A stretch of DNA of 64,000 nt from contig WIXG01000172.1 of assembly GCA_009869945.1 (NCBI GenBank), forward strand, positions 62,001 through 126,000, read 5' to 3'. Made by a program: the position numbers and the translations under genes. This DNA comes from Mesaphorura yosii. Its lineage: Eukaryota > Arthropoda > Collembola > Poduromorpha > Tullbergiidae. The notes beneath the pieces were generated by a model that saw only the letters and a program-made list of their open reading frames with translations, was not told where the DNA came from and did no database searches. Positions 7,228-15,932 of the stretch are shown piece by piece (position 1 is the stretch's first letter; every line of letters begins with the position of its first letter).

Positions 7228-10200
7228 TTATAATCGAATCTGGTAGTAAATGTGATTCTGGAGCCAGTTGTTGATCGGCTCATAAAACCGGACAACCCAG
7301 TCGTGATTGTGCCGCACTCTTTGCATGGACGTCGTGAACTGCTTCTTGCTCGCTTCCATTACCTCCTGATCAGCCTTTGATTTCATTCCTTCTGTGTACG
7401 TGTTGACTAAATCCTCCATCTGCCTCAACTCAACTTGTGAGTGGAGGTAGTAGCTGAGAATTGTTACAATGTCAGTGACTGGAACGTCCGTGCCCTCGTG
7501 ACCGTCACTGTCAACTTCTCCGGCACTGTTGACAACACGATTCATGTCGTACGTCTTCTCGTAGAGAAAATCCATGAGCACTTCACGAGAAGCGGGCGAA
7601 CTGCTGGCGAAGTTCTCGTATATTCGGTTGATGCTCTTTTTGTCGTAACCGGCCGCGACCAGCATGGTTGGCTTCATTGTTTCATGCAGCAGCCTGAAGA
7701 CAAAAACAAATTGTCCAGGAATTGCCCAATGCCAATTCCCAATCCGACTTCTGTGTCCCTTTGTTTACCTCCTCAGCAAATCTTTCTCCTTCGTGCATGA
7801 AAGTGCTGCCAGCAATGCTTGTTTTCTCGTAGGACTTGTAATGGGATTCTTGCCTTCAACCTCATAAAATTCGAGTACTTTATCCCATGCTGTCTTTCCC
7901 TTCACCTTGATGCTTCCGCAGAGGACTGCCGCTTGCAAGTCGGTTGGGATTCTGCATATTGTTTGACGCAAATTACAGAAAATGTTGAGTAAATTAAAGC
8001 ATTGACTTGAGCATTTAAGCATTTTTGCTTACTTATTGCCGACCGGATCTTTGACCCAAGCATCGAAGAGTTTCTCGGTGTACTTGAGGCTTCCCTCATC
8101 TTCCAGCACAACTGCGAACCCAAGCAAATGGCTTCGTGCAAGGACTGTGGTTCCCTTCTCGCCCGGCTTCTGTTCGAATCCGAGTTTGTTCAGGGCCGAA
8201 TTCACACGTGCGGTGAGATAAATCTGTGCGCGAGAGGAAATAATTAGCATGTGCATTTCGAGATTGATTGGACGCATTTCAGCCCGCATTATGAACCTGA
8301 AGTTTGTTGTACGCCTCAGTTTTCCCGAATAATCGCAGCGTCTTTCTGAAGTTGGAGTATGTCGTTGCCCAAACATTATATTCAGTCTCCTCGCCGAGAT
8401 AAAGCGTAAAATCCAGCGCATTGTTGATGTGGGTGTAATCTATTTCCGAAGTCAGTCATGGTTAGTTAATAACTTCCGAGTAGACAATTGCAGCTCACCA
8501 GAAAATGCAAGTGTAAAATAGTCATCAATGAATTGCGCACGAGCAGGCGGACTCATGACGGAATGCCCGGTGGATAATTGCTGGAGAATTCTTGATGTCA
8601 TCTCCTCGTCGTAAAGAACTCGGTAGAAACCTAGCCAAAAATACAGGCTTTGTATTTTCTCATTGCGTTGTCCAAAGTACGGACATTTTAGGCAGTACCT
8701 GCAGCCTTCGGATTCACTGCAATCCATTTGCGATTGGTCACGTCCAAGTTATAATACATTTTCGTCTTAGAAGTGCTTGGAATCCAGAAAAGTTCAGATT
8801 GACCTTCGTCCGAAGCAACCTTCACTGGGACCCACCAACTTTGAGCTGGTGCACTCTTGATACTTGGTGTGTCGCTGCTGTTTACCGCAGCTGGCGCAGA
8901 TTTTTCAGAATATTGGAACGGCTCCTTCAAAAAAGATCACAAGGTTCACGGTGCACGATCCATGCGTACTGTTTCAAAGGACCATGCCTCAAACCTCACC
9001 TGAGTCAGCAATAGCCCTTCTTCGGCCATCTTGATCCTGACCAGCGGATAACCTTTCTGCAGGGTCCATGTGTCCATGATTGTGCCCAGGGTTTGGTATG
9101 AGTTTGCCAGCGTTGGGTCGTATTGAAGGGCGATCTCGTTCAGGACTGAGTAGAGATCATTTTGATGCGCATTTCCAAAAGCACTAAATACGCACGGACA
9201 GTTGTTAAACTTTCGTCAAGCCGTCAATGCCTGTCCGTACCACTGACTTACAATTTCTTAAGATACGCTCGAAGACCAGCTTGGAGCACCTTTTCGCCAA
9301 GGAAATCCTCCATCATTTTGATAACGGACGATCCCTAAACGGGACTATTAACTCAAATATCCTGTACATGTAAGTCCAACTTAACTAGGAAGTTTACCTT
9401 TGAGTACGTAATTCTATCAAAATAAGCGACGTCAGGATTCGTATCGTTGACAATCGGATGTGAAGTTTCTGGAATTTGGTCATTCAGCAGTGCGATTTGT
9501 AGTTTATTCGTCCCGAACATGTTCCATACGGCATATTCAGGGGACACCGCGTGAATGCCCAGATTCTCTACGTACGACGCAAATCCTTCGTTCAGATAAA
9601 TCTGGGACCAGGTTCGGCAAGTCACCAAGTCCCCAAACCACTGGTGGGCGAGTTCGTGGCCAATCACTCCCGTGATGTCCAACCGCTCACGTTCGCTGGA
9701 CTTGCCTGGGAAGTACAGCAGATACGGATACCGGTACAGGTTCAGGCCGTAGTTCTCCATCGCCCCGGCTCCAAAATGCGGGATAGCAGCGGAATCCATT
9801 TTAGGCAGCGGATACTCAATGTCAAAGTAAGACTCGTAGAAGTTTAGGATTTTTGCAGCGACTTCTGCTCCTAACACCCCGCCTTCAGCATCAATCTGAT
9901 GTTTAGCTGCCCAGACGCGGACTGGCTTCCCATTGAACAGCGAAGGGTCGGCCGTCGCGCTCGTAAATTCGGAAACGGTAAGCGCAAGCAAGTACGTTGA
10001 CATTTTGACTGCAGTTGTGTTGTAATGGTCCCAGTACCAGCCATCGAGGCCCTTTCTGCAGACATAAACATGAATTCAGGATTCATTAGTAAAAAATCTA
10101 GAGTCAGGACGAAATTCTCATTCGTATTACATTGGCTCTGTCTTGTAGACTTCCATGTTGCTGAGAGTGTTGTACTTTTCCCGTCGTCCAATGCTAATTT

Positions 10201-12325: not shown

Positions 12326-13825
12326 ATGGCTTTCGCACAATATCCACCGGCCAATGTAAGTGACCAAGATTATGCAATGTAATTAGTACTCTCCTTTTTG
12401 CTCTGGATTATGTAATGTTCTTTGGATGCTTGATTTTGCGCTTGCAGCAACATATCATCAACGTGAATCACAATTCAAAGTGGAAAGATTTGGACTCGTC
12501 AGACGATTATCCCGAAGAAATTGATAACCAAGTTGACGCTTCCGTTCCAGGCTCATGGAAGGTGAATAACGGGACCTGTTGTTGGGACCGGGTTCCACCA
12601 ATAATTAGACCAACAGAACGTGTTCCTGAGTTCAATCCGACTGTGGGTGCGCCGCCCGTCTTGCTTGCACCCAAAATGCAAATGCCGTCATTGGCGCAGT
12701 CGTGCGCGTCGTCCTTATCAGCAGCAAAGGCCGCAGCGGCTCCAGGTAGGCTGCAACTCTTAGCTTCAATTGTGTAACAATGTTGAGATTGAATCGTATT
12801 TTAGTGGATGGAGTTGCAGTAGAAATCCAGCCGTACAATCCTCAGTGGGCGACCGCATTCGAAGAAGAGGCCAACCAAATCCAAGCAATTTTGGGTCCAG
12901 ACATTGTAATCCAGATCTACCATATCGGCTCCACATCTGTTCGTGGTCTTCCCGGTTAGTGACAACTACATTGCAATTTTGCATACATTTCGATTCTGGA
13001 ACACTCGTCTTCGTTATTTTCAAAGCAAAACCAATCATTGACATGATCCCTGTCGTCAAGAACATCCTGGCGATGGACACACCCATTTGTCGTTCAAAAA
13101 TGGAGGCGCTTGGCTACGAGTACAAAGGCGAACTTGGAATCCCATTTCGTCGTTTTTACACAAAGGACGACTCGTCTCCTTCCGCCGCCGCCGCTTCCGG
13201 TATGATTCGGCGCAGGACACATCATTTACATGTGTTCCAGGTTGGAAACCCAGAAATCGAGCACCATCTTCAGTTTCGCAGTTATCTGTCTTCTTCAGCC
13301 GCGCAGAACAATAACGACTTCAGAAAATACGCACAACTAAAAATGGAATTGGCAGCCATGTTCCCAAATGACATGGGGAACTACTCCCTCGGGAAATCCA
13401 ACTTCATCAGTAGTCTTCTGGCCAAAATCAATTTCGGTGGCATTCTCTTCAGAAATTGCCATACACGTGAAGAGTGGGATGGCTATCGGCGAATCATGCG
13501 ACGGAGTCAGTCCAGTGGGAACGAAATCGACGAAAAGTTGCCAAATCATTACCAGTTCGTTCTCGTCTACGGTGTCCATGCTGTCTGCGCAAGCCACGTG
13601 ATTCTCGACAAGGCAAACGGGTACTTTCAAATTCTTGATATTCAAGCTGACGAAAACTGGCTTGGGCAGGGCTTCGAGCAGAAAATGGAACAACTTTTAA
13701 TACAGTGGAACAGTCACCAACAATTCCTCGCCAAAGTTGAGAACGAGAGGAACGCTGACCTGGGAAGGCACTTCAGTGGGCTGAGCTTATCATCGAATAC
13801 TCTGCAAGGACACCCGTTTATGTAA
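12326..13825 (+). CDS. GrpB (UPF0157) nucleotidyltransferase-like / GNAT fusion protein
   Basis: Four exons (12326-12355, 12448-12745, 12805-12954, 13026-13825) join in frame to 425 residues. Residues 1 to ~109 are a low-complexity acidic then Pro/Ala-rich leader with no recognised domain. From ~112 comes a GrpB domain, a nucleotidyltransferase-fold family common in bacteria: IQPYNPQWATAFEEEA, then YHIGSTSVRGLPAKPIIDM with the active-site-like GSTS and the D in PIIDM, then EYKGELGIPFRRFY, HHLHVFQVGNPE and a closing Y..LK.ELA..FP...GNYSLGKS. After this, a region starting GGILFRNCHTREEWDGYRRI leads into YQFVLVYGVHAVCASHVIL and DIQADENWLGQGFEQKMEQLL, which resembles a GNAT acetyltransferase core with its acetyl-CoA loop (consensus Q/RxxGxG/A). 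Bacterial GrpB proteins with this extension are known, and the gene looks like a horizontally acquired bacterial gene that has gained introns. The biochemical role is unknown. An AATAAA follows at 14054-14059. Confidence 0.85.
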
Positions 13826-15104
13826 TGCTCGATGAAAACGGAATGCATCTTCCGGTTCTTCCATATTTGAAGAAACTGATCGTCTCGTCTCAACTCGCAC
13901 CTTCCCCATTCCGCTGGCCACCACTACACAAACATGCAAAATGCAATCTTCCGACCTATTCAATCAACTATAGCTTTTAATGTACAAAGAATATTTTACT
14001 CATAATTTAGCAACCCGGCCCCGACCCTGATTCCTCCGTCTAGTAAACTAGTCAATAAATTAGGTGTAATATCTCAGAATGTCGCATGGAGAATTTGGAG
14101 CAAGAGGAAGTGGAGAAAGCAAGACACTTCGGAGTACGTACGTAAATTATTTCTGGGCTCCAGCATAATTAATTCATGCACATATTTTAGTAGCAAAATT
14201 CTGTAGCGAGTATTTATTCTTATTCTTATGTATCGTATATTTCGAATTTGAATGAATAAAATCATGCTTTCACTGAAGTTTTCTTGAATCCTGCATAAAT
14301 TGTTCGTCTTTTCATTGTGGGTACTCAATAGCTGATAACAATGTTACCAGCGAGTGTGCCAGGACCGAAGATAGCAGAAAATACTATGCATCAGGCGAGT
14401 GAAGACGCAATAATGTTATCACTTCAGCGTTATGGAGAACAATGATATCATTTTACAAAGGAAAAGACATAAGTCAGTGTAAAAAGTCTTGGCGTACGCG
14501 TACGAGAATTGAAGGAAGTGTTATACACTTAATACAAAAGACGCAGTACAGCTGTAATGGATAGCAAGTTATCTGGCGCATTTTCCTGTATTTGAAGTTG
14601 TTAACTACTTTCTAAATTGAAGCCATCCTCGCTAAAATTATAATTTGAGTTATTTCATGACTTTCATTAATAATTTTACTTACACTAAATTAACCATCAC
14701 AAAATACATTTTTCCATCAAGTCAAATGGCTTTTGTTCATTTTCTCGAAGGCTGCACGATGGATTGCCGATGTTACATATTAGGAATATATATTCGTGCT
14801 TGCTCTACATGAATCAGAAGTCAGGCCGGCCTTCCCGTGCGTAATTTCAACTTCCCGAGAATTTTTCAATAAAGTTGTGATTTTGGGACCCTTTCGCACC
14901 ATAATCTGGCCCTGAGACCAAGATCAGGGTCTCGGAGACCAAGATCTGTCGCTGTGGGGCCCAATTCTGGGTCACACTGATTAGGTTCCTAAGGACCCAG
15001 ATCAGAGGTTTGGTACTGGACTGTTATAAATTCTCACACTCCACGGTAGAGGAATCAAATCAAATCGACTAAAAATTAACAATTACGCAAGAACATCTGG
15101 AATC
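13826..15104. other. Intergenic region with a short repeat
   Basis: The first ~230 bp should be the 3' untranslated region of the GrpB-GNAT gene (AATAAA at 14054-14059). The rest is AT-rich and non-coding. At 14914-14946 the 12-mer GAGACCAAGATC occurs twice with a 21 bp period, and the first copy also pairs with GGTCTC at 14928-14933. Confidence 0.4.
15025..15030 (+). promoter_or_regulatory. Possible TATA box of TM2D2
   Basis: TATAAA lies 80 bp before the ATG at 15105, a distance that fits a short leader. It is a simple match and not proof of promoter function. Confidence 0.35.
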
Positions 15105-15932
15105 ATGACTCTCGCGGAACTTATTGGCCGACTTAACCCACGATTTAGTACAAAAACTATCGTTCTAATCATTCTCCACCAGTTCATATTAATACTGGTA
15201 CCATCTGGCCAACAACAGCAGACTGCAGCGCGGAGATTGACAAATAATGCAACTCATTACAATCACCATCTTTCACAAAGTTTTGACCACTTTCTACATA
15301 CGAATGACGTTGGCTTCAATCCGCTTGGTCCGTTGGTTCGGTGTGACTACTTGCCAATGGATTTCTTAGAATGTGATCCACTAGTCGACCATAAAGGAAA
15401 TGATACCGCACAGAAGCGGGATGGCCATGGTTGTTTAAAGGTGAGATGGCAGTTAATTAGTTGTCTCTTAACTTCTCTTACGATTGACCTCTTCTGAATA
15501 TTCTGTGTAGCTTGGCGGAGAAAGATTCGAAGACGTGGAGCACGCTGCACGAATGTGCAAACCACTTCCTGGAATCGAGTGTTATGGCCAAAGCGGCCCT
15601 AAGTTCAAGAAATATGGATTTCCCTGCGTGAAATACACGGGTCACTATTTTCTCTCAACACTGCTCTTCAGTATATTCCTAGGGCTCTTGGGAATTGATA
15701 GGTTTTGTCTGGGACACACTGGAACAGGTAATTATCAAATAACCTGACTATAAACAATTCGGATGACGGTGGAAGTCATCCCAATTTCATACTTAATTAC
15801 TCTAATTCCGTAGGAGTCGGTAAAATGCTCACCTTAGGAGGAGCTGGTATTTGGTGGGTCGTAGACATAATATTGCTAATAGAAGGGTATCTGACGCCTG
15901 CTGACGGAAGCAATTGGATGCCCTATGTATAG
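15105..15932 (+). CDS. TM2D2: TM2 domain-containing protein 2
   Basis: Conserved two-pass membrane protein of the TM2D family. In Drosophila, TM2D proteins act with Notch signalling at gamma-secretase-dependent cleavage. Three exons (15105-15440, 15511-15727, 15814-15932) give 223 residues. There is a signal anchor ([17 protein letters not shown], residues ~18-35). The cysteine-rich ectodomain starts at [19 protein letters not shown] and continues with [15 protein letters not shown], the TM2D2 hallmark. The TM2 domain begins [17 protein letters not shown], has [16 protein letters not shown] between the helices (the DRF motif of this superfamily), and ends SDGSNW-like as [11 protein letters not shown]. 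Length and order match human TM2D2. The 3' end converges on the methyltransferase gene; an ATTAAA lies at 16093-16098. Confidence 0.93.

Follow-up and report, generated by a model that had tools for sequence, protein, structure and literature searches.

At positions 12326-13825 of the window, by which we mean the whole stretch of 64,000 nucleotides analysed here, lies a gene whose predicted splicing (12326-12355, 12448-12745, 12805-12954 and 13026-13825) gives a 425-residue in-frame product, in agreement with the four in-frame exons proposed in a first-pass annotation. Its three introns, of 92, 59 and 71 bases in that order, are all of the GT-AG type with a GC content of 35-37%, and the two introns of the neighbouring TM2D2 gene measure 70 and 86 bases. 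The features of the locus and its flanks are as follows, where P0001 denotes the top relative of the product, a JGI protein from a contig of 1,222 bases.

9353-10075, minus strand: exon of an M1 aminopeptidase (Peptidase_M1, 5.9e-49), upstream of the GrpB gene
12326-12355, plus strand: predicted exon 1, residues 1-10, with the start codon at 12326, a GTAAGT donor and an in-frame join; outside the span of P0001
12448-12745, plus strand: exon 2, in frame, holding most of a leader of about 110 residues whose second half is common to P0001
12746-12804, plus strand: intron 2, 59 bases, GT-AG, at residue 110; P0001 is unbroken there
12810-12954, plus strand: first part of the GrpB (UPF0157) domain, with HIGSTSVRGLP, residues 112-159 (PF04229 at 2.5e-9 for the exon alone)
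12955-13025, plus strand: intron 3, 71 bases, GT-AG; P0001 is unbroken there
13026-13426, plus strand: second part of the GrpB domain, from AKPIIDM to residue 293 (PF04229 at 5.5e-24 for the exon alone)
13427-13732, plus strand: GNAT remnant, degenerate and truncated, residues 294-395; no Pfam GNAT match
13733-13825, plus strand: C-terminal tail, ending in the stop codon at 13823-13825; P0001 has the same residue at 18 of 28 positions
14054-14059, with a second at 14255, plus strand: candidate polyadenylation signals (AATAAA/ATTAAA)
15105-15932, plus strand: TM2D2, complete, three predicted exons, 1.3 kb downstream of the GrpB gene

The polyadenylation signal claimed earlier is thus present in two candidate copies. 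Intron 2 lies about five residues ahead of the start of the Pfam GrpB match (residue 115), while intron 3 falls after GLP and before AKPIID, within a motif of high conservation; P0001 reads through the positions of both. Exon 1 and intron 1 are predicted from splice-site logic alone, P0001 starting near residue 63 of the window protein. The frame of exon 2 is itself open from 12364 through most of intron 1 (12364-12447, plus strand), where an ATG at 12415 in the same frame is followed by a hydrophobic stretch, and this ATG inside intron 1 may alternatively be the start codon.

Animal genes, namely the M1 aminopeptidase and TM2D2, stand on both flanks of the GrpB gene on the same contig, so that its placing between ordinary animal genes stands as first described, and RING-finger, RasGEF, ABC-transporter and zinc-finger genes occur further along the window. 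The closest named relatives of TM2D2 are from the springtails Orchesella cincta, Orchesella dallaii, Allacma fusca and Folsomia candida, then from crustaceans, insects and mites, which makes the host a springtail and not an insect. The GC content of the GrpB core is host-like (0.48, and 0.54 at third positions, GC3, compared with 0.45-0.49 and 0.42-0.57 in five neighbouring genes). Codon usage was tried as a signal of origin and set aside, being uninformative because its correlations between the GrpB core and the five neighbours (-0.01 to 0.25) are no different from those among the neighbours themselves (-0.14 to 0.50). Around the gene no direct repeats were found, and bacterial-type promoters and terminators occur there at the level of shuffled sequence. 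A search of the animal's own 93-Mb assembly (1,127 contigs) returned two matches, which are two exons of this one gene, and no second GrpB copy was found in it. The gene therefore sits among host genes and carries host introns, as a horizontally transferred animal gene would.

The identity of the GrpB half is secure. Pfam GrpB/UPF0157 (PF04229) matches residues 115-292 at 1.3e-43, scoring 149.4 bits where the cut-off is 25.5 and covering profile positions 2-158 of 159, and is the one Pfam domain above cut-off in the 425-residue protein; a comparison with the solved GrpB structure 2nrk gives 1.3e-25, and the window protein has the GrpB fold. The identification made from motifs at the outset is thereby confirmed, and all three of the GrpB and GNAT-like motifs then quoted occur in the spliced product. 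This half is the best-conserved part of the protein: it keeps 57 of the 71 columns that are conserved in at least eight of nine chosen full-length bacterial fusions, and retains every one of the residues that are invariant (G151, S152, T153, K161, D165, Y261, K265 and K283, in 279/279 aligned rows) or nearly so (H149 and H228, in 278/279).

This half has a nucleotidyltransferase-type fold. The whole structural model of P0001 gives weak Foldseek matches to Cid1, CutA and Pol mu (E about 1e-3 to 2e-2), and GrpB is named among proteins with the nucleotidyltransferase core in the accessible text of one source (PMC7288161).

The active motif of such enzymes, which we take to be hG[GS]...[DE]h[DE]h, is incomplete here in that D165 is present and the second acid of D-x-[DE] is absent, position 167 being isoleucine. 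The position two residues after D165 holds I, L, M or V in all but one of the 279 rows, and the missing second acid thus belongs to the family and is not peculiar to the springtail member. In five relatives (P0040, P0046, P0144, P0157 and P0160), GrpB stands beside APH-like (PF01636) or RibD-like (PF01872) domains, and fusions with APH-like, RibD-like and GNAT partners hint at small-molecule modification. Five others (P0008, P0009, P0011, P0016 and P0101) form a separate group with two GrpB-like domains in tandem, as judged by eye from their sequences.

The GNAT-like core recognized in the first-pass annotation survives as fold ancestry and not as a working domain. Pfam GNAT gives no match in the window protein (E up to 10) or in P0001 (E up to 1), whereas the same scan finds it in two full bacterial fusions at 3e-10 and 2.2e-13. 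After residue 293, 11 of 31 conserved columns are kept, with the nine chosen full-length fusions as reference; a glycine conserved in all nine is E377 in the window protein, and the conserved GNAT columns towards the C-terminus are gaps in it, so that neither the acetyl-CoA motif nor the C-terminal strand-helix half is present. Where the tail lies, bacterial fusions carry the latter half of the GNAT fold. Residues 236-330 of the P0001 model match the first 100 or so residues of GNAT structures. Judged from sequence, this part is a domain that has kept its fold ancestry, has decayed and is truncated at the C-terminus, leaving no working second domain. As the C-terminal portion of the GNAT half and the majority of its conserved residues are gone, acetyl transfer by the springtail protein appears very unlikely. 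Bacterial ORFs of 252-282 residues with a short GNAT occur in five of 40 fetched loci (L088, L091, L106, L107 and L110, of which L110 is short through a stop inside the match and L107 is the same gene as L003), and these end at about the point where the springtail relic ends. The GNAT half may have been lost repeatedly and, given similar short forms in bacteria, its decay may predate the transfer, having already begun in the donor.

The top relative, P0001, matches the window protein at 1.1e-170, with 73% identity over 85% and 80% over the core; identical residues number 152/176 in GrpB, 73/101 in the GNAT relic, 30/47 in the leader and 18/28 in the tail. Its sequence runs in the same order, from the latter half of the leader through GrpB to the GNAT remnant, and, lacking interruption where introns 2 and 3 fall, it reads like a spliced transcript from a related animal, an intron-free reading that would imply expression of the gene. 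The leader matches only itself, in exon 2, when searched against its own genome, and appears to be lineage-specific; it is probably disordered, the pLDDT being about 40 in the corresponding part of the model of P0001.

Relatives were gathered by a protein search (393 proteins at E up to 1e-3, the best 120 of these being used) and a profile search (the best 120 of 7,969), which together gave 200 proteins. The organism names among these 200 best GrpB relatives are bacterial throughout, most rows being without a name, and comprise Legionella, Rickettsiaceae, Trichorickettsia, Holosporales, Simkania, Chlamydiales and general proteobacterial entries. No named animal was found among the 200, compared with dozens, four springtail species included, when the same database was queried with TM2D2. 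After P0001 come P0002, second at 41%, and P0012, twelfth at 43%, both with a decayed GNAT, and both uninterrupted ORFs that start at the GrpB domain and have no leader; P0122, added by the profile search, starts inside the GrpB domain. R302 and C304, derived residues common to the window protein and P0001, recur in all three of these, and H239 in P0002 and P0012. The remaining best relatives are mostly bacterial GrpB-GNAT fusions or two-GrpB proteins, and the domain layout is of bacterial type, as was first supposed, the named kin being fusions with the same order.

A scan of bacterial and archaeal genomes gave the same picture. Among the best 80 of 550 matches, the top ones are fusions of Alphaproteobacteria, Legionella, Chlamydiota and a Rickettsiales symbiont, and the lower ones, from Bacillota and others including two archaea, are mostly GrpB alone, a form that is widespread in bacteria and present in archaea. 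Near-full matches, defined as those that begin where GrpB begins and reach position 240 of the 278 in the model or beyond, counted from rows and in a few cases with an internal stop, were found in 27/306, 44/232, 27/42 and 53/143 genomes of the orders centred on a Rickettsiales genome, a Parachlamydiales genome, an unplaced alphaproteobacterial genome and a Legionella genome, respectively. In two comparison orders there were none, in 0/293 genomes of the one and among the matches listed for 198 genomes of the other; a GrpB match occurs in 30 and 165 of these genomes, and the longest rows listed for the second order reach position 239 with stops inside. As four orders were chosen for their hits and two for GrpB alone, these figures give a contrast and not a census. 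The orders that carry the fusion are generally known as mostly intracellular groups. At least six Legionella plasmid records hold a match annotated GrpB-GNAT or GNAT, so the bacterial gene can sit on a mobile replicon. Two of three scans of viral contigs were without a relative, the third gave two GrpB matches at 33-39%, and phage records searched with P0002 gave three matches; a viral carrier has no support from these scans.

Trees were built from the window protein and the relatives gathered above, with no GrpB known to come from fungi or other eukaryotes among them. Rows more than 62% identical to a kept row were removed, which retained 89 of 279, and the short ORFs L018 and L080 also went out. 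Chosen by hand were the alignments of 16 of the best 120 relatives, 61 of the 200 proteins and the nine full-length fusions used for column counts. In the 89-row tree, whose bootstrap was unsettled, the window protein has P0001 as its sister (100/100), and this pair groups with P0002, P0012 and P0122 (100/97) within a 51-row clade (95/87) of GrpB-GNAT fusions, some of them with a short GNAT. With GrpB columns alone, the five-row group still falls among the fusions with an SH-aLRT of 81, deeper support being weak, at 52 for a 50-row group. When the 40 fetched bacterial loci were added in a 96-row tree, the five-row group had an SH-aLRT of 95 and none of the added loci joined it; L087, L093, L096, L107 and L118 of the 40 repeat genes already included, and several Legionella loci are equal in score. 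Two constrained trees, in which the other bacterial fusions form a clade that shuts out either the animal pair (p-AU 0.535) or the whole five-row group (p-AU 0.651), are not rejected and both scored above the free tree, so the pair may nest in the fusion clade or be its sister. The tree proposed as a check on transfer thus places the pair on the side of the bacterial fusions. Descent from bacteria and a phylogenetic position among them are supported.

Several other histories have to be weighed against a direct bacterial origin. The one that survives best, though we judge it unlikely, is that the gene came through or from another eukaryote, such as a protist, a fungus or a soil animal, P0002, P0012 and P0122 then being eukaryotic. 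The derived residues and GNAT decay that these three have in common with the pair would fit, as would a GrpB-domain gene on record for the fungus Fusarium graminearum in the accessible text of PMC10826363; however, P0002 and P0012 begin at GrpB and are unbroken and leaderless, like bacterial ORFs, and short-GNAT ORFs are found in bacterial genomes too. A second possibility, very improbable in our estimation, is that the gene is decaying and without function, as the state of its GNAT half could suggest; yet the frame is open in all exons, the splice sites are canonical and the GrpB part is 86% identical to P0001, against 73% over 83% for TM2D2 and its best JGI relative, which need not come from the species of P0001. 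Slighter again is the chance of vertical inheritance of an ancient animal GrpB lost in most lineages. A 2009 paper places the family in all kingdoms, flies, mice and humans included, in the part of its text available (PMC2765170), and this statement, with the Fusarium graminearum gene, means that eukaryotic GrpB members may exist; against this, named animals are missing from the 200 best relatives as they are not for TM2D2, and the closest named kin among the best matches are bacteria with the same fusion. Contamination or misassembly, with a bacterial stretch placed in an animal contig, has no evidence in its favour and can be practically dismissed, given introns within the domain, of which one breaks a strongly conserved motif, the host-like GC, the animal genes on either side and the same leader in P0001, which is independent data.

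Horizontal transfer into the springtail lineage is, by contrast with these alternatives, highly probable, and it is very likely that what we observe is an old bacterium-to-springtail transfer whose product today is a GrpB protein bearing a lineage-specific leader. The domesticated bacterial transfer first suggested for this locus is in this way upheld by bacterial kin, by host introns and flanks, and by a leader common to P0001. A GrpB-GNAT fusion of the type carried by bacterial orders of intracellular habit would have entered the genome of the springtail lineage, the donor being most likely among the kinds of bacteria that live inside cells; it has since gained spliceosomal introns and been joined to a new leader, steps visible in the anatomy of the gene, and its GNAT half has lost the C-terminal part and most conserved residues. 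The GrpB half, meanwhile, would still do what is proper to the family, acting on a nucleotide or small molecule, the GNAT remnant might serve as a platform for structure or dimerisation, and the leader could be a flexible segment for localisation or interaction. Since the GrpB half is the most conserved and keeps the near-invariant residues, the function of the GrpB family is what would most likely have been retained, and we consider such retention reasonably probable. The activity would be of GrpB type, or ligand binding, towards a nucleotide or small molecule and not acetylation, and that the reaction is nucleotide transfer we put forward only tentatively, as somewhat doubtful. A long shot is that springtails have made a new animal enzyme for nucleotide signalling or for antimicrobial/detoxifying use out of an intracellular bacterium's nucleotidyltransferase-fold protein, without the acetyltransferase half and with a new disordered leader, possibly used against bacteria of the donor type.

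GrpB is a family without an assigned reaction, and a transferred copy with a decayed acetyltransferase offers a natural experiment: the better conservation of the GrpB half beside the decay of GNAT suggests that the former is useful without the latter. The gene also adds a case in which orders known for living inside cells stand on the donor side, and its intron near the junction of leader and domain bears on how foreign domains turn into animal genes.

The setting is a familiar one, since the accessible text on Folsomia candida reports 809 transferred genes, 39.9% of them bacterial (PMC5490193), and that of a 2026 survey by Kapoor et al. reports 104 independent fusions with foreign domains in arthropods; Folsomia has the most of any species, and 37 of the 62 bacterial intervals have known symbionts as relatives (PMC13389597). 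The springtail GrpB gene fits the pattern that transfers are common in springtails, as far as the available text of the former describes it (PMC5490193). The word 'GrpB' is absent from the main text of PMC13389597 and was not found in that of PMC5490193, supplements being outside this scope, and among the titles and abstracts listed from the open-licence literature there was no report of a springtail GrpB transfer.

Among known systems, the closest likeness is to the bacterial GrpB-GNAT fusions of Legionella, Rickettsiales, Holosporales and Chlamydiota (PF04229 with PF00583), which have the same domain order, mostly 33-45% identity among the best 120 of the 393 proteins, and the same residues invariant over the 279 rows; the two full fusions that were scanned have a complete GNAT and no leader, whereas in the springtail protein a leader precedes GrpB, the GNAT is truncated and degenerate, and the gene has introns. 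EF_0920 of Enterococcus faecalis (PDB 2nrk) differs in being a single-domain GrpB without GNAT. In mycobacterial CoaE (PDB 6n39), UPF0157 is fused to dephospho-CoA kinase and is reported, in the available text, to help CoaE fold (PMC2765170), the one bench result on the domain that came to light here, and the springtail protein has no such kinase. To Cid1-type and other nucleotidyltransferase-fold enzymes there is a weak likeness of fold, GrpB keeping one acid (D165). The arthropod chimeras (PMC13389597) and the Folsomia candida transfers (PMC5490193), as the accessible parts of these sources present them, share with our gene a bacterial domain set in an intron-bearing animal gene of few species; the former chimeras by definition also contain, in one reading frame, a segment of metazoan origin, and the springtail gene, whose leader matches only itself in its own genome, is at most a candidate for one.
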